Source: Streptococcus hillyeri (GTDB taxonomy: Bacteria > Bacillota > Bacilli > Lactobacillales > Streptococcaceae). From it: a stretch of DNA of 64,000 bases. The notes under the pieces are model-generated. The model saw only the letters and a list, made by a program, of their open reading frames with translations, did no database searches and was not told the DNA's origin. A program made the translations under genes and the position numbers. The DNA lies in NCBI RefSeq assembly GCF_003686955.1, contig NZ_RCVM01000007.1, positions 1-64,000 on the forward strand, in the 5' to 3' direction. Shown here in pieces: positions 10,412 through 64,000 of this stretch; the stretch's first letter is position 1; each line of letters starts with the position of its first letter.

Positions 10412-10414
10412 GTT

Positions 10415-11785
10415 ATGACAGAACATTTTACTGTGGAAAGGGCTAATGCTTATATTGCAGCACCTACAGAGGCTCTTGACACAACGTTTAAACCCGAAAA
10501 ACATTTTTCAGCACCGATTGGCTGGATCAATGACCCAAATGGTTTTGTGTATTTCCGTGGAGAGTATCACCTCTTTTACCAATTTTACCCTTACGATAGT
10601 GTGTGGGGGCCAATGCACTGGGGCCATGCCAAGTCAAAAGATTTGGTCAATTGGGAGCATTTACCAGTTGCTTTAGCACCAGATCAAGAATATGATAAGG
10701 ATGGATGCTTCTCAGGCTCTGCCATTGTCAAAGACGATACCCTCTGGTTGATGTACACTGGTCATAATGTGGATCCAGATGGAAGCGTTCGTCAAATCCA
10801 AAACATGGCCTACTCAACAGACGGTGTGACCTTTACTAAGATTAAGGAAAATCCAGTAGCGACTGGTGATATTCTACCAGAAGAGTTGGTGGCAGCAGAT
10901 TTTCGTGACCCTAAACTTTTTGAAAAAGATGGTCGTTATTATGCGGTAGTTGCTGCTAAGCATAAAGATAATGTCGGAACCATTGTTCTATTGGGTTCAG
11001 ATGATTTGGTGGACTGGAGCTTTGAATCCATCTTCCTTAAAGGTGAAGCTGACCAAGGCTTTATGTGGGAATGTCCAGATTACTTTAGTCTAGGTGGCCA
11101 AGATGTCCTTGTCTTCTCTCCAATGGGTTATCCAAAAGCTGGTAATGACTTTGCAAATCTTAACTCATCTGTGGCAGTTCTTGGTACGGTTGATTGGGAA
11201 ACTAAAACATTTAAGTTAGAATCTGTTCAAGAAATTGATCACGGTCATGACTTTTATGCACCTCAAAGCCTAGAGGATGGTCAAGGACGTCGTATCATGA
11301 TTGGATGGGAGCATACATGGGGGCGTACCGTTATCCCTCATGAGTTGCGCCACGGATGGGCAGGTAGCATGACCCTCCCTCGTCAATTGACGATTGTTAA
11401 TGGACGTGTGAAGCAGACAGTTCTTTCTGAAAGCATAGCAGAGCTTCCAAAAGTAGCTTTAGGAGATGTAGTAGAAAGCGCAGCCTATCTTGAACTTTCT
11501 CTGGAAGCTAGCCGTCATTTCCGAATTGGTTCGGCAGAAGATTTTGTGACCTTTGGTTACGATGCTGATCGTGAAGAAGTCTACATTGACCGTAGCAAAC
11601 TCGCTTATCAATTAGTTGGTGAAGAAAAATGGGAAACTACTCGCCGAGCAGTAACCGTAAAAGCAACACGCTTGCAAGTTGTGATTGATAAGAACTCTCT
11701 TGAAATATTTGTCAATGGTGGTCAAGAAAGCTTAACTAGTGTAGTCTATCTGACACAAGAAAGATATTTGGAAGAACTTAAATAG
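10415..11785 (+). CDS. Intracellular GH32 fructosidase (sucrose/fructo-oligosaccharide hydrolase, SusH-like)
   Basis: This 456-residue glycoside hydrolase family 32 enzyme cleaves terminal beta-fructosyl bonds. The three active-site motifs are present: WINDPNG with nucleophile Asp40, FRDPK with Asp165 as transition-state stabiliser, and WECPD with Glu219 as acid/base. A five-bladed propeller is followed by a C-terminal beta-sandwich containing SLEIFVNGGQESLTSVVY. No signal peptide is present, so hydrolysis happens in the cytoplasm after import by the upstream ABC system. It is the last gene of the operon, and a strong terminator follows. It could act on phosphorylated sucrose (ScrB-like), but linkage to an ABC importer rather than a PTS favours unphosphorylated substrates. 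Confidence 0.95.
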   Translation: MTEHFTVERANAYIAAPTEALDTTFKPEKHFSAPIGWINDPNGFVYFRGEYHLFYQFYPYDSVWGPMHWGHAKSKDLVNWEHLPVALAPDQEYDKDGCFSGSAIVKDDTLWLMYTGHNVDPDGSVRQIQNMAYSTDGVTFTKIKENPVATGDILPEELVAADFRDPKLFEKDGRYYAVVAAKHKDNVGTIVLLGSDDLVDWSFESIFLKGEADQGFMWECPDYFSLGGQDVLVFSPMGYPKAGNDFANLNSSVAVLGTVDWETKTFKLESVQEIDHGHDFYAPQSLEDGQGRRIMIGWEHTWGRTVIPHELRHGWAGSMTLPRQLTIVNGRVKQTVLSESIAELPKVALGDVVESAAYLELSLEASRHFRIGSAEDFVTFGYDADREEVYIDRSKLAYQLVGEEKWETTRRAVTVKATRLQVVIDKNSLEIFVNGGQESLTSVVYLTQERYLEELK

Positions 11786-11790
11786 TAAGA

Positions 11791-11824
11791 AAACCTAGGA
11801 TTCGGATGAAATCCTAGGTTTTTC
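11791..11824 (+). terminator. Intrinsic terminator of the oligosaccharide operon
   Basis: A perfect 11-bp stem AACCTAGGATT/AATCCTAGGTT is followed by TTTTT. Confidence 0.92.
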
Positions 11825-11883
11825 GTTTTTAAGTAGAAATAAATGCAGATATGGAGGAATTATCCCAAATTTTCAGAAAAGTC

Positions 11884-11911
11884 TTGCAATATTGGGTGAA
11901 AGGCATATAAT
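11884..11911 (+). promoter_or_regulatory. Promoter of pepC
   Basis: TTGCAA (11884-11889) and TATAAT (11906-11911) are 16 bp apart; AAGGAG and the ATG at 11942 follow. Confidence 0.8.
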
Positions 11912-11941
11912 GGGACTGTAATAAGAAAAAAGGAGTATTTT

Positions 11942-13270
11942 ATGTCAACATTAACGAATGACTTTACGGAAAAATTATATGCTGACTACCTAGCTAATCC
12001 TAAGTATCAAGCTGTTGAAAATGCTGTGACCAATAATGGTTTGCTCAAATCTCTTCGAACACGTCAATCTGCAATTGATAATGACTTTACCTTTTCAATT
12101 GATTTGACGAAAGATGCTGTCTCTAATCAAAAAGCTTCAGGGCGTTGCTGGATGTTTGCAGCGTTGAATACGTTTCGTCATAAACTCATCAACCAATTCA
12201 AATTAGAAAACTTTGAATTGTCGCAAGCTCATACTTTCTTCTGGGATAAATACGAAAAATCAAACTGGTTTTTGGAACAAATTATTGCGACAGCAGACCA
12301 AGAATTGGGAAGTCGTAAGGTGAAGTTTCTCCTTGATGTGCCACAACAAGATGGTGGTCAATGGGATATGGTGGTAGCACTTTTTGAAAAATACGGGGTT
12401 GTGCCAAAGTCAGTTTATCCAGAATCCGTGTCATCTAGCAATAGCCGTGAGCTCAACCAATACTTGAACAAATTGCTTCGTCAAGATGCCCAAATTCTTC
12501 GTGAAGCTGTTCAAAGTGGTGAGGATGTCCAAGCCAAGAAAGAAGCTCTCTTACAAGAGATTTTCAATTTTCTAGCGGTTAATCTAGGTTTGCCACCACG
12601 CCAATTTGATTTCTCTTACCGTGACAAGGACAATAATTTCCACACGGAAAAGCAAATCACTCCTCAAGATTTCTTTGACAAATATGTCGGTTTGAAATTA
12701 TCAGATTATGTTTCTGTCATCAATGCGCCAACAGCTGATAAGCCTTATGGCAAATCTTACACCGTTGAGTTGCTTGGAAATGTCGTCGGAGCACCTGCGG
12801 TTCGTTACCTTAATCTTGGGATGGAGCGTTTCAAAGAGCTTGCAATTGCCCAAATGAAGGCAGGAGAAACGGTCTGGTTTGGTTCTGATGTTGGTCAAGT
12901 GTCAGACCGTCAAGCAGGTATCATGGCGACAAATACCTATGATTTTGATGCAGCTTTGGATATTAGCTTGACTCAGGATAAGGCTGGGCGTCTCGATTAT
13001 AGTGAAAGTCTGATGACGCATGCGATGGTCTTGACTGGAGTTGATTTGGATGACAATGGCAAACCACTTAAATGGAAAGTCGAAAATTCATGGGGAGATA
13101 AAGTCGGTGAGAAAGGCTACTTTGTCGCTTCAGATGCCTGGATGGACGAATATACTTATCAAATCGTTGTCCGCAAAGAATTCCTCACCGAAGAAGAATT
13201 AGCTGCCTATGAAGCAGAACCGCAAGTTTTAGCCCCTTGGGACCCAATGGGAGCCTTGGCAGGCAAATAA
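11942..13270 (+). CDS. pepC: Aminopeptidase C (bleomycin hydrolase family)
   Basis: PepC is a cytoplasmic papain-like (C1B) cysteine aminopeptidase, usually hexameric, that releases N-terminal residues from peptides taken up by the cell. The length of 442 residues is standard. The catalytic Cys69 lies in QKASGRCWMFAALN, His360 in MTHAMVLTGV, and Asn382 in VENSWGDK. The C-terminus reaches into the active site in this family and ends here in ALAGK. It has its own promoter and terminator, so it is a single-gene unit. It contributes to peptide-based amino acid nutrition, in keeping with the amino acid genes elsewhere in the window. Confidence 0.98.
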   Translation: MSTLTNDFTEKLYADYLANPKYQAVENAVTNNGLLKSLRTRQSAIDNDFTFSIDLTKDAVSNQKASGRCWMFAALNTFRHKLINQFKLENFELSQAHTFFWDKYEKSNWFLEQIIATADQELGSRKVKFLLDVPQQDGGQWDMVVALFEKYGVVPKSVYPESVSSSNSRELNQYLNKLLRQDAQILREAVQSGEDVQAKKEALLQEIFNFLAVNLGLPPRQFDFSYRDKDNNFHTEKQITPQDFFDKYVGLKLSDYVSVINAPTADKPYGKSYTVELLGNVVGAPAVRYLNLGMERFKELAIAQMKAGETVWFGSDVGQVSDRQAGIMATNTYDFDAALDISLTQDKAGRLDYSESLMTHAMVLTGVDLDDNGKPLKWKVENSWGDKVGEKGYFVASDAWMDEYTYQIVVRKEFLTEEELAAYEAEPQVLAPWDPMGALAGK

Positions 13271-32134: not shown

Positions 32135-35100
32135 ATGAATAGTTTAAAAAATAAACTGTTGGCACTATTAGGGCTAGTTGTTTTCATAGTGTCGGGTGGT
32201 CACTGTTTTAACTGGACCTCAGTTCAAGCTGAAAGTGGATCGTCACAATATGCAGGTCGTTATCAAGCTTACAGTTCAGCGACAGCTGATGGAGTTTACA
32301 AGATTGATATTGCCAAAATTGGCAACGATGGGAAATTATCGGAAGAAATGGTCGCTTACTGTTTACAGTATGCCTACGCCTTTCCAGGCTCTGTGAACAA
32401 TGAGCTGAGACCGGCTATTTATGATAAAACTGATTTAACGAATACTGATATTGACAATTTTGACAGTAAAAAAGATAAGTTAAATGCTATTCTTTACTAT
32501 GGTTACCCAACGGACGGCAACCATTATGTGGAAGATAAGGTTATCAGTGCGACTCGTTTGCGAGCCTTAACCCAGTATGCCATCTGGAATGTTACGGATG
32601 GAAAAACTGCCAAGGACTTCCACTTATCTGGTAAGGAAGAAGAGATTTTTAATAAGTTGATTTCTGGTGACTTGACAGCACCTGCTGATTTTAAACCAGT
32701 TTTCTTTAAAAATGATCGGACCCTTCAGGCGAGTCCGACTGCTCTAAAAAACAAGAAATATTATCAGCACTTAATAGCTAGTGAAAAAGCGCCAGTCAGT
32801 TACAAGGTGTTTGCTCAGAAACGTTGGTCAACCGCACCAAATCCTTTAGCTGAAACAACAGTTACTTTCAAGCTAGTGAATAAAGATGGTAGCAAAGCTG
32901 AGGAGATTAGTGATGGAGATGCTGAAAAAGTATTGACAACAAAAGCTAAGGAAACAGCTTCTAATGTGGTAACTTGGGAAAATCTACCAAAGCATGCTAG
33001 CAATTATAAAATCATTGAAGTTGGCAAAAAAGAAGGCTTTATGGCAGGTCCTTTAACTGGAACAGGTCGTGAGGACTCACCTTATACGATAACAAATGAT
33101 AAAACAGATACTTTATCTATTCCAAATATTGAAGTTACAAAAAAATGGGAAGACAAAGCAGTAGATGCAGATAATATCTATTTTGGAATCTATCGTATTT
33201 CTGAAGATGGCAGTGAGACGTTAGTGACACAAGAGCAGATTGATTATCCTCAAGCTAAGGCTACTTTTATCAATCCTAAAAAATTAGAACGGAATCGAGT
33301 TGACTGGAAGCAAATTCAACTTTCTTTGTACAAAGTACCTGGTGACAGTACTAGTGAACGTTACCGATATGTAGTAAAGGAACTTCGTAAAGTAGAAGGT
33401 GATAAATTCATTGACTGGAGTTATCCGGGTTATGAAACAAGTTATAAAGTCACTTATACAGCCCAAGGCTCTATGACTGTTGTTACAACCAACAAGCAAA
33501 CCAATAAATTCCGCTATCAATTTGGTAAAGTTGGTACAGATGCGAAAGAAAAGCAATTAGAAAATGCGGAACTACGCATTGTAAAAGTTACTAAAGAAGG
33601 TGAAAAAGAAACGACTTCAACAGTAGATAGCTGGACAACAGATGGGTCATTGCATGAAACTACCTTGGAGGCTGGAACATATCGCCTAATTGAAGACAAG
33701 GCGCCAGAAGGTTATGATGTAGCAACTATTTCTGAGTTTACAGTTTCAAGTGAGGGGGCACTGGAGTTTACAAAAAATAAAGATAATGTTGAAGTAGATC
33801 AGGATAAGACTACGGTTCAACTCATTAACAAAAAAGAAGTGGAAACTTCTGTGACCTTTAAAAAACAAGATTCAAAAGGTCAAGCATTGGCAGGTGCGAC
33901 ATTGGTTATCACAAATCCGAACACCAAAGAGACTGTAGCTGCTTTCAAGACAACTGATAAGGAACGTACGCTCACGCTTCAACCAGGTACATATACTGTA
34001 TCGGAAGAAGAAGCACCAGCTAATTATGTAGCGGTTAAACAGTTTAATTTTACGGTTAATGGGCAAGGGGGAGTTGGTGATTTAAAGAAAACATATGAAG
34101 CAGATATGATCACACTTGCTAATCAAACGATTACTATTGTTGATAAAGATGCTCAGAGATTGGTTTTGAAAGCTCAGAAAGACTGGGTCAACAAGCCAGA
34201 AAATACACCAGATGTATACTTCCAATTGATTCGAAAAGCTGGTGATTCTGATACAGAATTTGTAGAGAAGAAGAAACTTGAAAAAGGACAAACAACTGTA
34301 GAATTTACAAACCTAGATACTCATGGTAAGAATGGAATTCCTTATGTTTATAATATTTTGGAAGTTAATAGCGAAGGAAATACTTGGCAGTATGAAAATT
34401 ACACTTCTAAAGTTATAAAAGAAGTTGATAATGCGCAGGCGTATGGCGAAGGCAATGATACTTGGATTTGGGAAAACACTTACACTGCACCAATTATTAA
34501 AGTTGAAAAAATAGTTCGTTTCAGTAAAGTTGCGGTTAACGGGACTAAAGAGCTTGAAAACGCTCATTTGAAAGTTGTTGAAGGGGCTAATGCCGAAGGA
34601 CAAATCGCTGTTGATTCTAAAACTAAAAAAGAATTGACTTGGGTTTCAGGTAAGAATCAAAAAGAATTTACACTAGAAGCTGGCACCTATACAATGGTGG
34701 AAACACAAGCTCCAGACGGATTCTTGATCGCGGAGCACATCACTTTCACAATTGATGAAAATGGTGGTATTACCCGCACAGATAAAGAAACTGTGGCAAA
34801 CGACACTATTGTGATGAAAGATGAATACAAGCGTTACGACATAGAAATCAGTAAACAAAACATCGCTGGTAATATTCTTGAAAATGCAAAAGTCACTGTC
34901 CGCAACAAAGCAACAGGTGAAGTTGTTTCTGATGTGAATGGTGTCAAACTTGAAAACTATGTGACAACTAAAGAAAACATGAAAGTGAAGTTGGAAGCAG
35001 GTGAGTACACATTTGAAGAAAATGCGGCACCAGCTGGTTACGATGTAGTAACAACGTTCACATTCACAGTAGACAAGAATGGTAAGGTGACAACAACAAG

Positions 35101-37648
35101 TACAGAGGCGAAAGCTAAGGATTCTGTCTTGACTGTCATTGACCAAGCTACAAAATACAACATCGAAATTAGTAAACAAAATCTTGGTGGTGAAGAATTA
35201 GAAAAAGCCGAAATTGAAATCTTTAAAGCCACAGCTGATGGTAACAGAGTACATGTTACTAAGTGGGTTTCTAAAAAAGAAGTTCATAAATTAACCCTTG
35301 AAGCAGGCGATTACATTTTTGTCGAAAATGCAGCTCCAGCAGGTTACGAAAAAGTTTCAGAAATTCACTTCACAGTCACAACCGATGGTAAGGTCAAAGT
35401 TACTAAAGTTGGTGATTCGAAAGAAGAATCTGAAATTTCTAAGACAGCTAAAGTAGAGGCAGCTAATGAAAATAAACTAGTTGTCATCGACCAAGCTACC
35501 AAGCATGACATCGAAATTAGTAAACAAAACATCGCTGGTGACATTCTTGAAAATGCAACAGTTACTGTTCGCAATAAGAAAACAAATGATGTTGTTTCTG
35601 ATGTGAATGGTGCCAAACTTGAAAACTATGTCACAACGAAAGACAACATGAAAGTGAAGTTGGAAGCAGGTGAATACACATTTGAAGAAAATGCGGCACC
35701 CGCTGGCTACGATGTAGTAACAACTTTCACATTCACAGTAGATAAAGATGGCAAGGTGACAACAACAAGTACAGAGGCGAAAGTTAAGGATTCTGTCTTG
35801 ACTGTCATTGACCAAGCTACAAAATACAACATCGAAATTAGTAAACAAAATCTTGGTGGTGAAGAATTAGAAAAAGCCGAAATCGAAATCTTCAAAGCCA
35901 CAGCTGATGGTAACAGAGTACATGTTACTAAGTGGGTTTCTAAAAAAGAAGTTCATAAATTAACCCTTGAAGCGGGCGATTACATCTTTGTCGAAAATGC
36001 AGCGCCAGCGGGTTATGAAAAAGTTACAGATATTCATTTTACGGTAACCGTAGATGGTAAAGTGAACGTCACAAAAGTTGGTGATTCAACTAAACAAGAT
36101 GACATGTCTAAGACAGCTAAAGTAGATGCTGAGAAAGCGAATAAGCTCATCGTCATTGACCAAGCTACGAAACACGATGTTGTCATCAGTAAAGTTAACC
36201 TAGATGGCAAAGAGCTTGAAGGTGCTGAGATTGAAATTTCAAAAGACGGTAAAGTCGTAGAATCATGGAAATCAGAAAAAACGGCTAAAACAATCAAGTT
36301 AACAGCTGGAGATTATATCTTCCATGAGAAAGCAGCACCAAAAGGCTATAAAGTTGTGACTGACATTACTTTCAATGTTTCAGAAGAAGGTAAAGTCACA
36401 GTAGTTAAGACGACAACAAGCGGTAAAGCTGAAGTTGTAGACAATAAATTAGTTGTAACCGATGAAGCCGAAGAGCCTAAAGCCCAAGAAGTAATTATCA
36501 GCAAAGTTGATATTGCAGGTCAAGAGGTAGAAGGCGCTTTTATCACTATCTATAATGAGTTAGGGCATATTGCAGATAATCGCATAAGAGAGCATGACCC
36601 AGCAGAATGGACTTCTAAAAAAGGTCAAGTCTTTAAGTTAAAATTACTTCCAGGTACATACACCTTTGAAGAAAAGGTTGCACCAAAAGGATTACAAAAA
36701 GTTACGAAGTTGAAATTCACAGTTGATGCTCAAGGAAAAGTAGCTGTTGTATCTAAAGGTGTTAATGATGATGCTACAGAGGCGAAATCAGAAGTAAAAG
36801 ATGACAATAAGCTCATCGTTACAGATATGCCAGAAACTAAAGATGTTGTCATCAGTAAAGTTAACTTGGGTGGTGAAGAACTTGAAGGTGCGGAAATTGA
36901 AATTTCTAAAGACGGTAAAGTCGTAGAGAAATGGACATCAGAAAAAACAGCTAAGACAATTAAGTTAGAGGCTGGGGACTATATCTTCCATGAAAAAGTA
37001 GCGCCAAATGGTTACTTGAAAGTAACCGACATCACTTTCACAGTAAGTGAAGATGGTCAAGTAACTGTTAAAGATGCAGCTGGCAATAAAGTAGATTCTA
37101 CAGATAACAAGTTAGTTGTTACAGACCAAGTTGCTCCAACTACAGAAACAAGCACTACAGCAAGTGAAACAACGACTGAAGCGATTGCAAGTGAAACAAC
37201 AGTAAGCGAAACGACAACAGAAGCGATCACAAGTGAAACAACAGTGAGTGAAACAACAGTGAGTGAAACGACAACAGAAGCGATCACAAGTGAGACAACA
37301 GTAAGCGAAACGACAACTGAAGCAATCACAAGTGAAACAACAGCAAGTGAAACGACAACAGAAGCAATCACAAGTGAAACAACGGTTAGTGAGACTACAA
37401 CTGGTGTAAGTACAAACACTACAGCAGCAAGCGAAATATCTTCTACTGAAGCAAGTACAGGTAACACAACAGAAAAAACAGATCGTGGCAATAAAGGTGA
37501 AAAAACCAAAGCTGGGTCTAAAAAATCTCAATCTATTTTGCCAAGAACGGGTGAACAAGTAGTATTGTGGATGAGTGTTGCTGGATCAATTCTTCTTGTA
37601 GCACTAGCTGCGTTCATGTACCTAAAAATTAAAAATCATAATTTGTAA
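32135..37648 (+). CDS. Thioester-domain, multi-Cna-B LPXTG surface adhesin
   Basis: This 1837-residue cell-wall-anchored adhesin has a signal peptide (to about residue 32), then a thioester domain: Cys76 in VAYCLQYAYAFPG and Gln147 in the TQxA-type motif LTQYAIWNVTDG. Such domains bind host proteins covalently. Two or three Cna-B-like domains follow (from about 222 and 330; a third near 665, KAQKDWVNKPENTPDVYF), then about ten SpaA-type Cna-B modules each ending in L-x-(A/P)-G-x-Y-x-x-x-E-x-x-A-P-x-G-(Y/F), which are expected to carry Lys-Asn isopeptide bonds. A Ser/Thr/Glu repeat wall-spanning part precedes LPRTG (1802-1806), a hydrophobic helix and tail KIKNHNL. Anchoring is by housekeeping sortase A; no dedicated sortase adjoins. 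Residues about 900-1350 contain two near-identical 223-residue units. Confidence 0.93.
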   Translation: MNSLKNKLLALLGLVVFIVSGGHCFNWTSVQAESGSSQYAGRYQAYSSATADGVYKIDIAKIGNDGKLSEEMVAYCLQYAYAFPGSVNNELRPAIYDKTDLTNTDIDNFDSKKDKLNAILYYGYPTDGNHYVEDKVISATRLRALTQYAIWNVTDGKTAKDFHLSGKEEEIFNKLISGDLTAPADFKPVFFKNDRTLQASPTALKNKKYYQHLIASEKAPVSYKVFAQKRWSTAPNPLAETTVTFKLVNKDGSKAEEISDGDAEKVLTTKAKETASNVVTWENLPKHASNYKIIEVGKKEGFMAGPLTGTGREDSPYTITNDKTDTLSIPNIEVTKKWEDKAVDADNIYFGIYRISEDGSETLVTQEQIDYPQAKATFINPKKLERNRVDWKQIQLSLYKVPGDSTSERYRYVVKELRKVEGDKFIDWSYPGYETSYKVTYTAQGSMTVVTTNKQTNKFRYQFGKVGTDAKEKQLENAELRIVKVTKEGEKETTSTVDSWTTDGSLHETTLEAGTYRLIEDKAPEGYDVATISEFTVSSEGALEFTKNKDNVEVDQDKTTVQLINKKEVETSVTFKKQDSKGQALAGATLVITNPNTKETVAAFKTTDKERTLTLQPGTYTVSEEEAPANYVAVKQFNFTVNGQGGVGDLKKTYEADMITLANQTITIVDKDAQRLVLKAQKDWVNKPENTPDVYFQLIRKAGDSDTEFVEKKKLEKGQTTVEFTNLDTHGKNGIPYVYNILEVNSEGNTWQYENYTSKVIKEVDNAQAYGEGNDTWIWENTYTAPIIKVEKIVRFSKVAVNGTKELENAHLKVVEGANAEGQIAVDSKTKKELTWVSGKNQKEFTLEAGTYTMVETQAPDGFLIAEHITFTIDENGGITRTDKETVANDTIVMKDEYKRYDIEISKQNIAGNILENAKVTVRNKATGEVVSDVNGVKLENYVTTKENMKVKLEAGEYTFEENAAPAGYDVVTTFTFTVDKNGKVTTTSTEAKAKDSVLTVIDQATKYNIEISKQNLGGEELEKAEIEIFKATADGNRVHVTKWVSKKEVHKLTLEAGDYIFVENAAPAGYEKVSEIHFTVTTDGKVKVTKVGDSKEESEISKTAKVEAANENKLVVIDQATKHDIEISKQNIAGDILENATVTVRNKKTNDVVSDVNGAKLENYVTTKDNMKVKLEAGEYTFEENAAPAGYDVVTTFTFTVDKDGKVTTTSTEAKVKDSVLTVIDQATKYNIEISKQNLGGEELEKAEIEIFKATADGNRVHVTKWVSKKEVHKLTLEAGDYIFVENAAPAGYEKVTDIHFTVTVDGKVNVTKVGDSTKQDDMSKTAKVDAEKANKLIVIDQATKHDVVISKVNLDGKELEGAEIEISKDGKVVESWKSEKTAKTIKLTAGDYIFHEKAAPKGYKVVTDITFNVSEEGKVTVVKTTTSGKAEVVDNKLVVTDEAEEPKAQEVIISKVDIAGQEVEGAFITIYNELGHIADNRIREHDPAEWTSKKGQVFKLKLLPGTYTFEEKVAPKGLQKVTKLKFTVDAQGKVAVVSKGVNDDATEAKSEVKDDNKLIVTDMPETKDVVISKVNLGGEELEGAEIEISKDGKVVEKWTSEKTAKTIKLEAGDYIFHEKVAPNGYLKVTDITFTVSEDGQVTVKDAAGNKVDSTDNKLVVTDQVAPTTETSTTASETTTEAIASETTVSETTTEAITSETTVSETTVSETTTEAITSETTVSETTTEAITSETTASETTTEAITSETTVSETTTGVSTNTTAASEISSTEASTGNTTEKTDRGNKGEKTKAGSKKSQSILPRTGEQVVLWMSVAGSILLVALAAFMYLKIKNHNL
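34838..36175 (+). repeat. Two near-identical 669-bp tandem repeats inside the adhesin gene
   Basis: Copy 1 is 34838-35506 and copy 2 is 35507-36175. Each encodes two SpaA/Cna-B modules (ISKQNIAGxILENA... and ISKQNLGGEELEKAEIEIFKATADG). Long stretches are identical at the DNA level, with few substitutions, so the pair looks recently duplicated or homogenised. A third start of the same register at 36176 is diverged. Confidence 0.9.
37159..37410 (+). repeat. Low-complexity SETT(V/T)xE repeats in the wall-spanning region
   Basis: Runs of SETTVSETTTEAIT-type units are encoded by AGTGAAACAACA-like repeats of 12 to 42 bp. They form an extended stalk and could change in number by slippage or recombination. 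The reading frame on the opposite strand here is only a shadow of this repeat. Confidence 0.85.
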
Positions 37649-56247: not shown

Positions 56248-56256
56248 AGAATGATG

Positions 56257-56281
56257 GAGGTTGTCTTAGGGCAACCTTTTT
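56257..56281 (+). terminator. Intrinsic terminator of uppP
   Basis: GGTTGTC pairs with GGCAACC around a short loop, followed by TTTTTT. Confidence 0.85.
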
Positions 56282-57075
56282 TGTGTACTCTTGGTTAGGA
56301 GAAAGGGAATGTTTGTCTGTTTTTTTAAAACGATGGTGAAATGGTGTTAATAACATGTTTATCAAAAAAATCACAAACAAAAGAGTTTTTGTGAGAAAAT
56401 AAAAAAATGAAAGGTCAACTTCGTTTAGAAAGTAGAGGTAGTGAGGAGAGCCATGGATGTTTGTTCTTCAATACTTATATAACTGGTTGTAAATTAAACA
56501 GTTTTGACAAATGTGTTTTTATAAGGGATAAAAAAAGCGAAAGAATTAATCCAAGTTTTTCAGTCATTGATATGCAAGCATTTGCGGATAATGTTTGTTA
56601 TTTTTGAGTAGAATTTCTACTGAATATTTTTTAGTCATGTAAATTGTGTTAAATAATTAAGGTAAAGTGAACAGATTCTAATAATTTAAAACGATTATAA
56701 AACCATGTGATTCATTGATAAATTTAGGATGTAGCAGATATTTAGGGGTGGCTTGTTTTTGTCAAAAATGTATAAATTGATAGTCTTTACATGAGAATTA
56801 CTTATGTTGTTATAGTAATCCATATGTTTTATACTAACTAATGATAGTAACAGTAGATATTTAGAATGCTTTGAGTGTGTCATTGACTGAGTCGAAAACA
56901 TCATTAGAACGTATTCTTTTATATTTTTTGTTACGTTTTTTTGTAGGCGGATTAACTTAGTAAGAGAAAGTTTCTCGACAGGTAAGTAATCCGTTTCTTT
57001 GGGTACAAAGTAAGAAAGATAAGAAAAGCATAGAAGCAATTAACTTCTATGGAGCATGTTTTACAGGAGACATAC
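56282..57075. other. Long AT-rich intergenic region before the pilus locus
   Basis: Nearly 800 bp. No pilus regulator gene (RlrA/RofA type) is present. Frames of 66 codons (56407, plus) and 114 codons (56695-57039, minus) lack ribosome sites and look random. A weak promoter, TTTACA (56786-56791) and TATAGT (56811-56816) with a 19-bp gap, might drive the pilus genes with a long leader. Nothing else can be supported. Confidence 0.5.
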
Positions 57076-60000
57076 ATGAGAAAACTAAGAAAGATATTTC
57101 ATAAGGCAGTTGCCTGTTTGTGTTGTTTATCTCAGCTGACAGTCTTTTCTACAACTCTTACCTCAGCAGAGGTATCGCCAGCGAATCCATCGACCGGAAA
57201 GATTGTTGTTAGGGAGACAAGTGATAGTGGTACGATTTTACAAGAAGCCATATTTACCTTAACAAACCAAAAGGATGGGGCAATTGTTTCACAAAAAACG
57301 GATTCTCAAACTGGTGATATCACCTTCACAGACCTAGTTCCAGGGACATATATCCTAACAGAAACACAATCGCCAGTAGGTTATCATCCATCAAAAAAAC
57401 AGTGGCTTGTGAACGTTAAAGAGAACGGGGAGACAATAGTCAGTGGAGACGGGGTGACAGAAAGAGAAGAAGTATTATCTCCTAACTACCCACAAGAAGG
57501 CGTATATGAGGATGATAAAACGAAATATAACTTTATTCCAGTAGACGGTTCTCAAATAGGAGAACAACATAAGGCGTGGAATCCAGAACCATCTGAACGT
57601 ATAATTGACGAAGGAACTCTATCAAAGAAGATTTATAAGGTCAATGATTTAGAGGAAAATAGCTATGGTATTGAACTAACAGTTAGTGGAGAGACGACAG
57701 AAAGTGAAAAAACCACAATTGAAGAGGGAGTCATCACGGATCCAATAGGGGAGATGATTGAACTTCAATTGGGGAAAGATGGACTGTTTGATTCCACGGA
57801 CTATACTCTAAAAGGAAGTGACGGAAGCTATCTCGAAAATGGTCAAGCAATAGGAGGTCCACAAAAGGATGGTGGGGTCTTGAAGCAAGCTCAAGTGAGC
57901 TACGATGATGAGACAAAAACACTTCGGGTCACTGGTCTGACTCTAGGGACGGATGAACAAATCACTTTGACTTATAATATTCATTTGAATCCTCAATTCA
58001 CCAGTCATACGCTCTATAGCACCAACGGTCGAACGACTTTACACCCCAAGGGAGTAGAATCAGAAATAGTACGTGATTTTCCAATTCCTCAGATATGTGA
58101 TTTTTCTATTTATAAAAATCTTAACATTCGAGAGTATCCAGAAATTACAGTTCCAAAAGAGAGAAAACTTGGAAAAATTGAGTTTAGGAAATATGCTTTT
58201 GATACATCAGTAAATGATCAAGGTCAACTGTTAGAGAACAATAAAAAACTTTATCTTGAAGGTGGTCAATTTGAGTTGTGGAAGCTGAATCCTATAACTG
58301 GTCACTATGAAAAAGATAACAACCATAAAATAGAAATTTCAGCTGCCAAAACAGGAAAATTTGTCTTTGATAAGATTTCTCCAGGTCAATATCGGGTGAA
58401 AGAAATTGTTTCTCCGCCTGGTTATAAGGATACTCATGGTGCATTTGTAGCAGAGTTTACTTACACGGAGGCGGCAGAGTTTGAAAATGTCACACCTACT
58501 ACAAAAGAAATTAAAAATGTTATAGGTGGTGATGGCAAGGTTGAATTAACAAAAATGTCTAGAGAAAATGGTGTAGAAGACATCCTTCCTGGGGCAACTT
58601 TTGTCATTAAAGATAGTAAGGGAAATATTCTAGATACTCAAAAATCAGATAATACAGGGCGTCTTACGTTCAGTGAGTTGCCATATGGAATATACTACAT
58701 TGAGGAAACAAAGGCCCCTAGTGGTTATGAACGAGATAAAGAACCTTTAAGAATTTATGTTGGTCCTGATTTTGATGTTCCTAAAAATGCAGTGGGAAAA
58801 GATGTTGGAGATAAGGTTCATGCCACTTCTGGAAGTATCAAATCTTATGACTTTAATAATGATGAATTGATACACAAAGAAGTTATTCCTGGTCAGGCTG
58901 GTTACTTAAGAATTAATAGTGAATTTACTTTTGATGTTACAGCCATCAATAAAGAAATAAAACCTGGAGATTATTTCAAGGTTAAACTAAGTGAGAATTT
59001 GTCAATTGGAGGTCTGACTCCAGATGAACAAGTCGTAGATTTAGATATTGTATCTAGTGCAGGTGTCGTTGCAAAAGGTAAGTATGATAAGACTACCCAT
59101 ACACTTACCTATACATTCACAAATTATGTAGAAAATTATATTTTAAGTAAAGCTGGAACGTCACTGACAGCATATATTGATAAAAAAGTTGTTACTGATA
59201 ATCGTAAAGTTTTAATATCAAGAAGTGTACTTAAAAAAGGTGTTGAAAAAGATACCGTGTCGGCGACATTTAGTGTCGTTTATAAAGGATATGCTCGTAT
59301 AAAAGCCAAGAATTACAATCAACATTCTATTGGCTATCATCAAACTATGCTACCATCTATGGGGAGCCTAGTCACAAAAGTTGATGAAGAGAAAAATAAA
59401 TATACCGCTTATGTGTATTACAACGTTAATGGCGATTCAATTGCCTATCCTAGACTAAATTTAATAGATACAGGTGATACGATTAATCCGATTACGGAAA
59501 CTACGAGGGTAAGAATTTATCGAGTAAATGCTGGTGCTATGAAGCCAAGTTTTGGGTATTATGAAGATGCTGATGGAAATCCGCTTACTGGGCCAAATGG
59601 TCGAATGATTGGGGAAAAGGTGTACGATGGATTTCCTAAAGAAAGACAAATATTATTGGAGACGTCTAGGTATTTATATCGACATGCATATATAGTGAAG
59701 GTTGATGGGGATTTCAGTGACAATCCGGGTAATATAAAAATAGAGGCTTACGGAGATGGGCTTTCATATAACGGTTATAGATATTCTAATCGAGTAAATG
59801 CTTATGTCGTACTAAATTCGAATTCATCAGAAGCGGAGGGGGAGGTCGGTCTGAAGATTATTAATAAGCCAAATCAGATTACTTTTACTAAGACCGGTTT
59901 AGATGATAAGCCTCTCCCAGGTGCCAAGTTTGAGCTTCGTAAGAAGAATGAAAATGGTCATTTTGATAAAGTGGAAGGAAGTGAGCGTACCTCTGCGGGG

Positions 60001-60717
60001 GCCGATGGAACCTTTAATTATTCGAAATTAGCTTATGGTGAATATGAAGTTTGGGAAACGGCTGTTTCAAATCCTAACTATATCCTACCAAATAAGGCTG
60101 TGGCTACTTTTAAAGTCAATGCAGAAGGCCGCATTATTGATGTGACACCAGAGGATAACGTGATTCGAAACTCGGTTAGTTCAAAATTGAAGATTATTAA
60201 ACAGGATGCGGATGATACGAAAGTCAAATTGAAAGAGGCAGTATTTGAACTTTATAAATTAGGTGTGACTGGAGAAGAAAAGAGTCTTTCGAAAGAAGAG
60301 TTTGAAAAATTATCTGCTGATGAACAGAAAGGGTACATTTATTCTATTCAAAAAGGCGGAATTACTACGACGAAATGGACGACAAACAATAATGGTGAAG
60401 TCGTCATTGAAGGTTTAGTGGACGGTGTTTACGTTCTTAAGGAAGCCAAGGCGCCGAAGGGCTACGGTATCCGTAAGGAAACAATGGGACCAATTATCAT
60501 TGAAAATGGGAAGGTGAGAGATAGCCCGGAAAATGAGAGCAACGATATTTTTAAGATTAAATATAATGAATCAGATAGCGCAAAGAATACAATGACAGTT
60601 CATAACAGGAAGTTAAGTTACCCATCAACGGGTGGATTAGGAATTTCTGTCTTTATGATGATAGGTGGTTTCCTGATGTTTGGGTCTGTTTTTTGGTATC
60701 GGAAGCGATATCTATAA
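57076..60717 (+). CDS. rrgA: Pilus tip adhesin, RrgA-like but lacking the vWFA domain
   Basis: This is a 1213-residue sortase-anchored protein. Its start (RKLRKIFHKAVACLCCLSQL) and first 200 residues align with pneumococcal RrgA as I recall it: SpaA domain ending GTYILTETQSPVGYHP, then EGTLSKKIYKVNDL and YGIELTVSGET. RrgA continues into a von Willebrand A domain; here the text jumps after residue about 207 to EEGVITDPIGEMIELQLG and rejoins RrgA through NGRTTLHPKG and RDFPIP. Then come Cna-B modules (GQYRVKEIVSPPGY, GIYYIEETKAPSGY), a segment at 590-920 with GDYFKVKLSENL and THTLTYTFTNYV like MSCRAMM N2/N3 ligand domains, two more Cna-B modules (GVYVLKEAKAPKGY) and a YPSTG anchor (1182-1186). 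Ribosome site AGGAG precedes ATG 57076; an upstream ATG at 57049 is also possible. Confidence 0.85.
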   Translation: MRKLRKIFHKAVACLCCLSQLTVFSTTLTSAEVSPANPSTGKIVVRETSDSGTILQEAIFTLTNQKDGAIVSQKTDSQTGDITFTDLVPGTYILTETQSPVGYHPSKKQWLVNVKENGETIVSGDGVTEREEVLSPNYPQEGVYEDDKTKYNFIPVDGSQIGEQHKAWNPEPSERIIDEGTLSKKIYKVNDLEENSYGIELTVSGETTESEKTTIEEGVITDPIGEMIELQLGKDGLFDSTDYTLKGSDGSYLENGQAIGGPQKDGGVLKQAQVSYDDETKTLRVTGLTLGTDEQITLTYNIHLNPQFTSHTLYSTNGRTTLHPKGVESEIVRDFPIPQICDFSIYKNLNIREYPEITVPKERKLGKIEFRKYAFDTSVNDQGQLLENNKKLYLEGGQFELWKLNPITGHYEKDNNHKIEISAAKTGKFVFDKISPGQYRVKEIVSPPGYKDTHGAFVAEFTYTEAAEFENVTPTTKEIKNVIGGDGKVELTKMSRENGVEDILPGATFVIKDSKGNILDTQKSDNTGRLTFSELPYGIYYIEETKAPSGYERDKEPLRIYVGPDFDVPKNAVGKDVGDKVHATSGSIKSYDFNNDELIHKEVIPGQAGYLRINSEFTFDVTAINKEIKPGDYFKVKLSENLSIGGLTPDEQVVDLDIVSSAGVVAKGKYDKTTHTLTYTFTNYVENYILSKAGTSLTAYIDKKVVTDNRKVLISRSVLKKGVEKDTVSATFSVVYKGYARIKAKNYNQHSIGYHQTMLPSMGSLVTKVDEEKNKYTAYVYYNVNGDSIAYPRLNLIDTGDTINPITETTRVRIYRVNAGAMKPSFGYYEDADGNPLTGPNGRMIGEKVYDGFPKERQILLETSRYLYRHAYIVKVDGDFSDNPGNIKIEAYGDGLSYNGYRYSNRVNAYVVLNSNSSEAEGEVGLKIINKPNQITFTKTGLDDKPLPGAKFELRKKNENGHFDKVEGSERTSAGADGTFNYSKLAYGEYEVWETAVSNPNYILPNKAVATFKVNAEGRIIDVTPEDNVIRNSVSSKLKIIKQDADDTKVKLKEAVFELYKLGVTGEEKSLSKEEFEKLSADEQKGYIYSIQKGGITTTKWTTNNNGEVVIEGLVDGVYVLKEAKAPKGYGIRKETMGPIIIENGKVRDSPENESNDIFKIKYNESDSAKNTMTVHNRKLSYPSTGGLGISVFMMIGGFLMFGSVFWYRKRYL

Positions 60718-60816
60718 AATATAGCCTGCTATTTGAAAGGGGGAATGCTTATCGCTTTTAACTGTTTAAAGAAAAGTAGTAGCATAAAAAATTATATAAA
60801 GAAGGAAAGAGGAATA

Positions 60817-62802
60817 ATGGTAAAAAAATTAATAAAAATCTTAGCCCTAGTGGCTTTGTTATTCAGTTATCTTGTACCAGTCGTACAGGTTGTGAGGGCG
60901 GAAGAGGCAAAAACAACGAATGTAACGATTCATAAAATCAAGTTGGATAATTTGGCGAAGTGGAAAATGTTGAAACCACAGGAGGATGGAACATATGTAG
61001 GTGATGATGGAAGTATTTATAATGGCAATAAGCTTCAAAATATTGACCAGTATTTTGGCGCTGGTGCAGAAGAACTATCAGGTGTAACATTTACATATTG
61101 GTTAGTAAAAAATCGTACTCAATATGAAAAAATGGTAAAAAATCCTGGTCAATACGATACTGTTGAGAAAGTTAAGCAGGAATTGCAAGAAGAAGGTTTG
61201 GAAACACAGCCAACAGGACAATCGGGAGTTGAAGTCGAATTATTGCCTGGCTTATACTGGGTTGTTGAAAACTTTGGATCTTACATTGGACCGAATGGTG
61301 AAACATTATCTGATTCGGCAGCAGTTCCCTTTGGATTAGAGTTACCAGCTTTTAACAAAGATGGTAATCCGATTGAAAATCTCCACGTTTATCCCAAAAA
61401 TACTATTACAAAACCAAAAATTGATAAAGACTTTAAAGGGAAGGCTAACGCAGAAAAACCGAACAAGGACAAAGAATTAAGAAGTCAAACGGTTGGTGAT
61501 ATAGTAGCGTATGATATTGAAACCCTTATTCCTGTTGGTACACGATATGCGACATCTAAATGGTCTGATCAAATGACGGAAGGTTTGACTTTAAATAAAG
61601 ATAGTTTTGAAGTGTCAATTGGCGGAGGTCCAGTTAGTAAAACAGATTATAAGTTGACTACAACAGAGACTGGTTTTGAATTGGAGCTTACTAAAGAGGG
61701 ATTAAATAAAGTCAATGGTCAAGTTAAAGAAACTAAGATTAAAATCTCTTACTCGGCTACTGTCAATAAAAAGGTCATTGTAGATATTCCAGAAAGTAAT
61801 GATGTGACTTTCCACTACGGAAATAATCCAGCACATGGAAATTCACCTATTCCTACTAAACCAAATAATAAACAGATTATAGTTGAAAAACAATTTAGTG
61901 ATGGGAAATTCCCAGAAGATGTTGACGTACAAGTTACATTATATAATGCTCAAACAGGCAAAGCAGTAGAGCCGCGACAAGTAGCTACATTGACTAAACA
62001 GCAACCAACTCATACATTTATTGGACTTGATAACGATACAGAGTATAAGGTTATTGAAACAAATCTATCAGGCTATTCAGCAGAATATAAAAAAGTAAAC
62101 CAGAATGGTCAAATTATTATTGTTAACTGGAAAGACAATAATCCACCGCCATTAACTCCAGAAGAACCTAAAATAGTGACAGGTGGTCAACGTTTTAGAA
62201 AAGTTGATAAGGTACATGATAATAAGGCTTTAAAAGGTGCTGAATTTGTTGTTAAAAATAAAGCAGGGAAATATTTAGCGCGTAAAGACGCTACTAAACG
62301 TAATGAAGATCAGAACCAATATGATGATGCAGAGAAGAAATATCAAGATTTAGTTAAAGTTGCTAGTACTTCTAATGGTCAGGAACTTATGGCAGCTAAG
62401 GAAGCGCGTGATAATGCCTATAAGACAGCTAAGTCAGAATGGAAATGGGTTGAACAAGAAAAAGATGCCTATATTTTTATCTCAGGTGAGAATGGCTATT
62501 TCCATGTTTCAGGTTTGGTATATGAAGCGTATGAATTAGTGGAAATAAAGGCACCAACTGGCTATGCTAAATTAATTACTCCTATTTCATTTGTAGTAGG
62601 TCCGGGATCTATGGACGGTGTAGAAATAGAGTCTCCTGAGAAACTTGATATTAGATTAAAGATTATTGACAACAAAAAAATCACTATCCCACAAACAGGT
62701 GGTATTGGTACAATTATCTTTGCTGTAGGTGGTGCTGCGATTATGGCTGCTGCACTTTACGCTTATTTCAAAAACAACAAGGATGAGGATCAACTTGCAT
62801 AA
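60817..62802 (+). CDS. rrgB: Pilus backbone (major) pilin, RrgB-like
   Basis: This 661-residue major pilin is polymerised by class C sortases. The signal peptide ends near VVRAEE. The pilin motif is NLHVYPKNTI with Lys194 as the crosslinking residue, followed by TKPKIDKDFKGKAN, VPESNDVTFHYGNNP-like sequence and a final SpaA domain with E-box YEAYELVEIKAPTGYAKL. The sorting signal is IPQTG (624-628), then a helix and the tail NNKDEDQLA, matching pneumococcal RrgB from memory. The D3 domain (VTLYNAQTGKAVEPRQVATL) and a helical insertion near 505-550 (QYDDAEKKYQDLVKVAS) also fit. AAGAGG precedes the ATG at 60817; it lies 99 bp after the tip gene with no terminator. Confidence 0.93.
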   Translation: MVKKLIKILALVALLFSYLVPVVQVVRAEEAKTTNVTIHKIKLDNLAKWKMLKPQEDGTYVGDDGSIYNGNKLQNIDQYFGAGAEELSGVTFTYWLVKNRTQYEKMVKNPGQYDTVEKVKQELQEEGLETQPTGQSGVEVELLPGLYWVVENFGSYIGPNGETLSDSAAVPFGLELPAFNKDGNPIENLHVYPKNTITKPKIDKDFKGKANAEKPNKDKELRSQTVGDIVAYDIETLIPVGTRYATSKWSDQMTEGLTLNKDSFEVSIGGGPVSKTDYKLTTTETGFELELTKEGLNKVNGQVKETKIKISYSATVNKKVIVDIPESNDVTFHYGNNPAHGNSPIPTKPNNKQIIVEKQFSDGKFPEDVDVQVTLYNAQTGKAVEPRQVATLTKQQPTHTFIGLDNDTEYKVIETNLSGYSAEYKKVNQNGQIIIVNWKDNNPPPLTPEEPKIVTGGQRFRKVDKVHDNKALKGAEFVVKNKAGKYLARKDATKRNEDQNQYDDAEKKYQDLVKVASTSNGQELMAAKEARDNAYKTAKSEWKWVEQEKDAYIFISGENGYFHVSGLVYEAYELVEIKAPTGYAKLITPISFVVGPGSMDGVEIESPEKLDIRLKIIDNKKITIPQTGGIGTIIFAVGGAAIMAAALYAYFKNNKDEDQLA

Positions 62803-62826
62803 GTAAGAGAGAGAAAGGAGCCATTG

Positions 62827-64000
62827 ATGACATTACAGAAATTGATTAGTCGTATCTTCTTTGCTATGGCTCTGTGTTTTTCTCTTGTATGGGGCACCAC
62901 TGCTGTCCATGCGCAAGAAGATCACACCTTGGTCTTGCGATTGGAAAACTATCAGGAGGTGGTAGCAAAACTGCCATCTCCTGATGGTCACCGGTTGCAG
63001 GTCTGGAAGTTGGATGATTCTTATTCGCATGAGAATCGTGTGCAAATCGTGAGGGATTTGCATACATGGGATGAAGCTCAGCTTTCGTCATTTAAAACGG
63101 CATCGTTTGAGATGATTTTCGGTGACAACGAGATTCAAGTGCCACATGTGCCTAATGGGCTTTATTATGTGCGGTCTATTCTTAAGACAGAGGCGGTTTC
63201 TTATCCATCAGAATTTCTGTTTGAGATGACAGATCAAACGGTCCAGCCTTTGGTTATCGTGGCTAAGAAGTCTGATACGATTACGACAGCGGTGAAGCTG
63301 ATTAAGGTGGATCAAGATGGCAAGCCTTTGGCTGGTGTTGGGTTTACCTTAGTTTCTCTCGCAGAGGATGGTTCGGAAAAAGCGGTGCCTTTGATCGGGG
63401 AGTATCGTTACAGTGCTTCTGGTCAAGCTGGTCGAGTGCTTTATACGAATAAAAAGGGTGAGATTTCTGTGACTAATCTGCCTCTTGGAACTTATCGTTT
63501 CAAGGAGGTTGAGCCACTAGCGGGTTACGAAGTCACAAAAGGTGATACTGACTTTAAAGTACTTGGTAGTAAGCTAGTGACGGTTACGGTTGTCAATAAG
63601 AAATTGCCACGTGGAAATGCTGAGTTTATGAAGGTAGATGGTCGTACCAACCATTCCCTTCAAGGGGCTATTTTCAAAGTCATGACAGAAGATAAAGGGC
63701 AGTACACGCCAGTTCTTCAAGATGGCAAGGAAGTGGTTGTCACCTCAGAGAAAAATGGCCGTTTCCGTGTGGAAGGCTTAGAGTATGGGGACTATTACCT
63801 GTGGGAGATTCAATCGCCAAAAGGGTACGTTCAACTGGCTTCTCCTGTTGCCTTTACTGTCGGAAAGGAAGAGGCAAAAGAGGTGGTTACTGTGGTCAAA
63901 AATAACAAACGTCCACCGCTTGATGTGCCTGACACAGGGGAAGAAACCTTGTACGTCTTGATGGGATTAGCAGCTCTGCTATTTGGTAGTGGCTACTATC
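62827..64000 (+). CDS. rrgC: Pilus base (anchor) pilin, RrgC-like, cut by the window end
   Basis: The frame opens at ATG 62827 behind GAAAGGAG and remains open to the end of the window: 391 codons are visible. The signal peptide is MTLQKLISRIFFAMALCFSLVWGTTAVHAQ. The mature part DHTLVLRLENYQEVVAKLPS is followed by LRxQVWKLDDSYS-like sequence, two SpaA-type domains (GTYRFKEVEPLAGY and GDYYLWEIQSPKGY) and the sorting motif VPDTG (367-371) with the membrane helix just entering. The sequence is very close to pneumococcal RrgC as I remember it, the protein that attaches the pilus to peptidoglycan through housekeeping sortase. Only the last few residues of the tail are missing. Class C sortase genes should follow. 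Confidence 0.93.
   Translation, partial: MTLQKLISRIFFAMALCFSLVWGTTAVHAQEDHTLVLRLENYQEVVAKLPSPDGHRLQVWKLDDSYSHENRVQIVRDLHTWDEAQLSSFKTASFEMIFGDNEIQVPHVPNGLYYVRSILKTEAVSYPSEFLFEMTDQTVQPLVIVAKKSDTITTAVKLIKVDQDGKPLAGVGFTLVSLAEDGSEKAVPLIGEYRYSASGQAGRVLYTNKKGEISVTNLPLGTYRFKEVEPLAGYEVTKGDTDFKVLGSKLVTVTVVNKKLPRGNAEFMKVDGRTNHSLQGAIFKVMTEDKGQYTPVLQDGKEVVVTSEKNGRFRVEGLEYGDYYLWEIQSPKGYVQLASPVAFTVGKEEAKEVVTVVKNNKRPPLDVPDTGEETLYVLMGLAALLFGSGYY

Follow-up and report, generated by a model that had tools for sequence, protein, structure and literature searches.

A probable Streptococcus hillyeri pilus tip pilin of RrgA type without the vWFA domain and with an MSCRAMM-like N2-N3 module in its stalk

The von Willebrand factor A (vWFA) domain and its metal ion-dependent adhesion site (MIDAS) constitute a main adhesive part of well-studied Gram-positive pilus tips. 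In the description of RrgA given by PMC5333627, domain D3 sits inserted in domain D2, the two halves of which, Jo (residues 144-220) and In (593-722), are locked together by a Lys191-Asn695 isopeptide bond with the participation of Asp600. The same source describes an engineered construct without vWFA, Jo-GSTPGSV-In, in which a seven-residue linker joins the halves and which folds and forms the bond (PMC5333627). In RrgA, D3 and D4 are the domains credited with binding fibronectin (PMC7899983). The first 64,000 nucleotides of S. hillyeri contig NZ_RCVM01000007.1 (hereafter the window, to which coordinates refer unless stated otherwise) carry a gene for an RrgA homolog, here called the tip pilin, in which the vWFA domain is absent, Jo and In adjoin each other, and a module related to the N2-N3 domains of staphylococcal MSCRAMMs (microbial surface components recognizing adhesive matrix molecules) lies closer to the anchor.

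Searched against the PDB with phmmer, the tip pilin matches RrgA (2ww8) twice, chain residues 8-220 aligning with its residues 1-213 (6e-73) and chain residues 585-816 with its residues 207-456 (5e-63). The two matches flank a gap, indicating that about 371 RrgA residues, those of the vWFA domain, are absent net. The Jo/In chain 5mkc aligned to residues 135-342 with a single gap of 8 residues. At the joint, IELTVSGE extends to residue 206, TTESEKTTI occupies 207-215 and EEGVITD begins at 216; residues 207-213 may be placed in the alignment before or after the RrgA insert, and the Jo and In profile ends fall at 208 and 214. Over aligned positions 46/74 residues of Jo and 88/134 of In are identical to RrgA, and the In family PF21426 is matched at 1.8e-27 in the Pfam scan and at 3.2e-28 in the order-wide search. 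No Pfam VWA match was obtained in the tip pilin at E values up to 1, a vWFA profile run with filters off scored below 1 bit, and the MIDAS motif D-x-S-x-S is absent from the whole protein. A search of the genome with PF13519 (VWA_2) gave no match at E 0.001. The original prediction had held that vWFA was cut out of an RrgA-type tip between intact flanks, IELTVSGE(T) reaching about residue 207 and the following segment starting at 216, and this observation is confirmed: the deletion site is homologous to RrgA, the coordinates agree, and neither a vWFA domain nor its motif lies elsewhere in the tip pilin.

By alignment, the Lys-Asp-Asn isopeptide triad is kept, with K184, D222 and N317 at the positions of RrgA Lys191, Asp600 and Asn695, and D2 of the tip pilin would be expected to form its own bond. 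On the same alignment the natural Jo-In joint is tighter than the engineered seven-residue linker. Structure prediction lends no support to a closed D2: a single-sequence AlphaFold model of Jo-In, too poor for use, reached a mean predicted local distance difference test score (pLDDT) of 53 and Foldseek compared it to 5mkc with a template modelling (TM) score of 0.44 and a root-mean-square deviation of 16.9, the match being driven by 64% identity. A two-gene chimera or a collapsed repeat might be suspected in a draft genome of 83 contigs, but the reading frame is kept across the joint, which lies precisely at the Jo-In boundary, no stop interrupts the gene between its signal peptide and its anchor, and the surrounding islet has its order intact, so that an assembly artefact is exceedingly improbable.

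The rarity of this arrangement was assessed in 284 genomes of the genus and 395 of the order, one genome per species; labels beginning with G and L below denote genomes of this comparison set and stretches fetched from them. Within the genus, PF21426 exceeded its cut-off in two genomes, the window's own and G137, where the match scored 26.9 bits, lacked vWFA and fell under the cut-off in a direct scan. Within the order it did so in 81 genomes, at 127 places besides the window, all of which were examined. At every one of the 115 other places with an E value of 7.2e-9 or better, vWFA lies directly before In. It is in the same open reading frame (ORF) at 113 of them (79/80 of the first ORFs, 5/5 by Pfam, 21/21, and 8/9 of those last fetched) and in the reading frame ahead of a break at the other two, namely the 80th of the first ORFs, where vWFA is in frame before a stop, and one of the last nine, where it precedes a frame break. 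In two tip genes, L217 (G599) and L101 (G361), the vWFA part and the In part occupy separate open frames, which look like pseudogenes or frame breaks. The training set of the vWFA profile comprised 74 of the first 80 ORFs and none of the 21 or of the last nine, and Pfam provided a check independent of the profile: PF00092 matched 39/40 and 38/39 of the 79 strong ORFs scanned. In L145 vWFA was matched by the profile only, with no Pfam VWA match, and among the first 80 ORFs D-x-S-x-S is missing from the vWFA match in four, of which one is truncated at a contig end. Neither Big_8 nor SdrG_C_C was found at E 0.001 in any of the 79 strong In ORFs scanned.

The In match of the tip pilin belongs to this strong class and is alone in it without vWFA. 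A contrary explanation is that the form without vWFA is ancestral, D2 having once been continuous, vWFA having been inserted later elsewhere and the window having kept the old state. Since Jo-In folds without the insert in the engineered construct (PMC5333627), such an ancestor is physically possible, and twelve weak PF21426 matches over the cut-off, in eight ORFs and at 32.2 bits or less, do lack vWFA, PF21426 thus not being bound to vWFA in every case. Six of these eight ORFs were scanned directly (L226 and L230 being outside the scan), and PF21426 was not found in four, was below the cut-off in one and over it in L225. By their other domains the scanned ORFs are proteins with Collagen_bind (L227, L228 and L229), DUF11 (L225 and L232) or many Cna_B domains (L231), and the weak matches look for the most part like other Ig-like domains. 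A tree built from 82 In domains places the window in a starred set of three rows (support of 98 in the Shimodaira-Hasegawa-like approximate likelihood ratio test, SH-aLRT), nearest to RrgA (66%) and GBS104, the alignment being short at 129 columns and 31 of the 74 inner branches open. Because these nearest relatives both hold the insert at this place, vWFA was probably lost in the window lineage, which is the simplest reading; with vWFA uniform among the strong In matches, an ancestral state without it is very improbable and is rejected for now.

The second departure from RrgA concerns residues 573-928. Scanned alone, this region matches Big_8 (9.5e-24) and SdrG_C_C (1e-7), both over their cut-offs, and phmmer matches it to the N2-N3 constructs of ClfA, SdrD and SdrG in the PDB. 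The region had been predicted to be MSCRAMM N2/N3-like, and by these searches it corresponds to N2 plus N3 and not to plain Cna-B; the predicted layout of a 1213-residue protein, with additional Cna-B domains and the MSCRAMM region ahead of YPSTG, was likewise found. A trench motif of the TYTFTDYVD type has been described in N2 (PMC4850167, PMC3861647), and the tip pilin carries TYTFTNYVE at residues 678-686, a looser trench pattern turning up in 7 of the 5000 randomized versions made by shuffling the protein. The published trench and latch sequences include those of SdrC, TYTFTNYVD with GSSTANG, and the latches listed in these sources consist of small uncharged residues after N3 at a spacing of 196-216 residues from the trench (PMC3861647; PMC4850167). 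In a profile alignment with Bbp and SdrE, the trench and a latch-like stretch of the tip pilin fall at homologous places. The alignment behind the PDB profile search included two MSCRAMM-like ORFs from other genomes, and its full-length hits are therefore no test of the window by itself; the tests made with the window alone are phmmer and the Pfam scan of 573-928. Third-position guanine-cytosine content is higher in residues 1-342 than in 573-928 by 0.08 (codon permutation p = 0.019), a weak difference that was not used to argue for foreign origin.

Binding of a putative ligand by N2-N3 through a dock-lock-latch mechanism is plausible on these signatures, and several points weigh against it. 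The N3 match is weaker than that of N2, SdrG_C_C reaching 1e-7 and being missing from the full-length scan at E 1. The latch candidate NSSEAEG resembles the SdrC latch but stands 229 residues from the trench and contains two Glu. The module is internal and not N-terminal: D1, D2 and a pair of Cna-B domains precede it, and between it and the shaft come two further Cna-B domains and the anchor. A single-sequence AlphaFold model of N2-N3, likewise too poor for use, had a mean pLDDT of 31. With its charged and distant latch candidate, internal position and weaker N3, the module might instead bind a glycan or collagen in another manner, or serve as a mere spacer. This is a possibility of some weight but an unlikely one, given the homologous placing of trench and latch-like stretch, itself not a family-independent result with other MSCRAMMs in the profile. 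The loss of vWFA might also have left an assembled but non-adhesive tip cap, with binding carried out by the backbone or by different surface proteins; the genome does encode a further large adhesin-like product, if not more than one, in the thioester-domain protein at 32135-37648, but the intact frame and the N2-N3 signatures argue against decay, and a non-adhesive cap is improbable. The interpretation offered in the original prediction, a replacement of MIDAS adhesion by dock-lock-latch binding, is supported: vWFA is gone, N2-N3 has been gained and the trench motif is present. It is refined in two respects, in that the module does not occupy the vWFA position but sits on the shaft side of D1-D2 and two Cna-B domains, and in that dock-lock-latch binding is read from sequence signatures.

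We consider it quite probable as a whole that the tip pilin derives from an RrgA/GBS104-like tip pilin, that vWFA was lost and N2-N3 placed in the stalk, and that the module binds by dock-lock-latch. The protein would cap a pilus of rlrA/PI-1 type, built by sortases, as its tip subunit. The vWFA domain with its MIDAS would have been lost cleanly, leaving Jo and In to close directly on each other under their own isopeptide bond, while a staphylococcal-type N2-N3 pair with flanking Cna-B domains would have been placed lower in the stalk. SrtC enzymes would join the tip through YPSTG to the RrgB-like shaft. The groove between N2 and N3 would most likely clamp, by dock-lock-latch, a peptide from some surface protein, of the host or otherwise, pulling force would pass from N3 through the C-terminal Cna-B domains into the shaft, and D1-D2, having no MIDAS, would form a rigid cap at the distal end. 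In Actinomyces oris, a tip pilin's sorting signal has been reported to suffice for placing other proteins at the pilus tip (PMC11389406), suggesting that a different head can be fitted to an unchanged assembly line. It is an evenly poised question whether the locus records a natural exchange of tip cartridges, in which a dock-lock-latch clamp took over from MIDAS adhesion on a kept scaffold, signal and set of sortases, the heads being interchangeable and the self-closing D2 acting as a docking point able to do without its insert.

The tip gene belongs to an ORF at 57049-60717 on the plus strand, with a probable ATG start at 57076 behind AGGAG; coordinates of its parts and of the neighboring genes are collected in Table 1. 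Immediately 5' of its ribosome-binding site, at 57029-57051, lies a nine-pair hairpin that might act as a leader or in regulation. Structure 2y1v, matched by the backbone pilin, is that of RrgB (PMC7899983). The islet sorting signals are, in order, YPSTG, IPQTG and VPDTG, and those of RrgA, RrgB and RrgC are given as YPRTG, IPQTG and VPDTG (PMC5640630). The three sortases in order best match PDB entries 2w1j, 3g66 and 2w1k, which we take to be pneumococcal SrtC-1, -2 and -3, and in a manual count of the alignment the first sortase is identical to 2w1j at about 200 of 212 residues. The locus follows the rlrA islet (PI-1) in its gene order, from the tip through an RrgB-type backbone and the minor pilin to three SrtC enzymes, and is an rlrA/PI-1-type islet. 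Two points sit less well with this assignment. Modeling of SrtC-2 favors the Arg of YPRTG (PMC5640630), and YPSTG is without it. No rlrA-like regulator was seen as an ORF of 115 amino acids (aa) or more at 56248-57048, between uppP and the tip gene, and the genome's sole match to the Mga domain (PF05043) lies elsewhere, on contig 33. The neighbors, uppP before the islet and mecA after it, were judged by eye without a family search.

Table 1. Parts of the tip pilin and genes of the pilus islet. Positions are in the window except where stretch L017 is named.
Feature	Position	Strand	Basis
Tip pilin, 1213 aa, signal peptide through YPSTG anchor	57076..60714	+	ORF, Pfam, phmmer
Signal peptide and RrgA-type D1 (residues 1-133)	57076..57474	+	phmmer to RrgA 8-220; SpaA stretch; approximate boundaries
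Jo half of D2 (134-208), K184 at the RrgA Lys191 position	57475..57699	+	alignment; PMC5333627
In half of D2 (209-342), PF21426; D222 and N317 at the RrgA Asp600 and Asn695 positions; adjoins Jo, no vWFA	57700..58101	+	
Two Cna-B/SpaA domains (343-480, 481-572)	58102..58791	+	domain scan
MSCRAMM N2-like domain (573-722), Big_8; trench motif TYTFTNYVE 678-686	58792..59241	+	domain scan and motif
MSCRAMM N3-like domain (723-928), SdrG_C_C; latch-like NSSEAEG 916-922	59242..59859	+	profile alignment and domain scan
Second pair of Cna-B/SpaA domains, then the YPSTG sorting signal (929-1213; YPSTG at 1182-1186)	59860..60714	+	phmmer, domain scan
RrgB-type backbone pilin, IPQTG	60733..62802	+	PDB 2y1v 1.4e-106; Pfam
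Minor pilin, VPDTG	62824..64000, past the window end to L017:8023	+	Pfam
Three class C sortases, after the minor pilin	L017 8259-10888, beyond the window		

Two further features of the region were recorded. Elsewhere in the window, the plus-strand gene at 32135-37648 encodes a protein of 1837 aa, in which ten SpaA/Cna-B stretches accompany a thioester domain (TED) and which could be a second large, possibly covalently binding adhesin. Beyond the window, a repeat 461 bases apart in L017 (11335-11442 and 11796-11903) encodes in each copy the same 35-aa peptide with a hydrophobic core, presumably a duplicated type I toxin-antitoxin or holin-like peptide.

Within the genus, 30 of the 284 genomes, the window's own included, have N2-N3-like matches with E values up to 1e-4. 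Among 12 matching ORFs in 20 wider stretches and L018, only that of G061 (in L018) lies near a class C sortase sequence; its module with the next Cna-B domain is the best match to tip pilin residues 574-1032 (32%), and the N2-N3 module is in another frame than the rest of its tip. This split tip occupies L018 3415-8531, with Big_8 and Cna-B in one frame and N2-N3, Cna-B and LPATG in the next, and a second tip-like ORF with vWFA and DUF7604 is found at 9284-12355. A degenerate vWFA suspected by eye in the first G061 tip ORF was dropped, the profile finding none there. Plasmid records gave only partial matches, covering 35% of the query at most. Three protein-based scans of viral contigs confirmed no relative, a DNA-motif scan of the same contigs returned nothing, and neither did one phage search.

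SrtC-3-like sortases (E values up to 1e-30) are present in 13 of the 284 genomes of the genus, the window's own again included. Nine stretches around them were fetched, seven of which have an ORF ending in YPxTG or YPQAG. Four such tips were scanned with Pfam: that of G109 has Big_8 and SdrG_C_C, that of G015 vWFA with DUF7604, that of G249 F5/8 type C domains with a weaker Big_8, and that of G246 F5/8 type C with Big_8 in the preceding ORF. The scanned tips differ in their domains, indicating that adhesive domains are a variable part of the tip gene in this islet family. The pneumococcal rrgA and rrgB genes have been described as the most variable of their islet (PMC2576445), and srtBCD of S. 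suis as an rlrA homologue (PMC2797073). L187, L189 and L191 (G109, G253 and G249) hold ORFs of 2784, 2796 and 3248 aa, respectively, with many Cna-B matches and YPxTG anchors, each stretch also having three class C sortases; the long ORF of L191 carries F5/8 type C domains.

A close RrgA homolog without vWFA, in which the split neighboring domain could close like the engineered Jo-In, offers a natural test of D1-D2 in the absence of the insert, and it suggests that pili may alter the chemistry of their grip under a constant assembly line. It also serves as a warning that inferring vWFA-mediated adhesion from RrgA homology may mislead for such tips. Modular and MSCRAMM-like pilus tips are already known, and the clean swap seen here is a variant of these. 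Among the matches listed in a literature search, which had most subscription journals outside its reach, no description was found of an RrgA-type tip without vWFA or with N2-N3 in its place.

The closest described systems each share part of this architecture. With RrgA (rlrA/PI-1, 2ww8) and GBS104 of S. agalactiae (3txa) the tip pilin has in common D1, Jo, In and the position as first gene of an islet of three pilins and three sortases, and with RrgA also the signal peptide, the isopeptide triad, Cna-B domains and the YPxTG anchor; it differs from both in being without vWFA and the MIDAS motif and in having N2-N3 and further Cna-B domains. The engineered RrgA Jo/In (5mkc; Jo-GSTPGSV-In) is described as a D2 closed without vWFA through the same three bond residues (PMC5333627), whereas the tip pilin is a natural, full-length protein with hardly any added linker. 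CnaA of Clostridium perfringens has been presented as a predicted pilus tip with a collagen-binding domain (PMC8088525) and is likened here by description only. The tips of G061 (L018) and G109 (L187) resemble that of the window in combining Big_8 and SdrG_C_C with Cna-B domains near class C sortase sequence but, unlike it, gave no hit to PF21426 at E 0.001 in those of their ORFs that were scanned. With the staphylococcal Clf-Sdr MSCRAMMs (ClfA, SdrE, Bbp, SdrG and SdrC) the tip pilin shares N2 (Big_8) and N3 (SdrG_C_C); it has a latch-like candidate stretch, and its trench TYTFTNYVE is one letter away from the TYTFTNYVD of SdrC; their modules are N-terminal on cell-wall proteins, whereas that of the tip pilin is internal, in a YPSTG-bearing protein of what would be a pilus tip.

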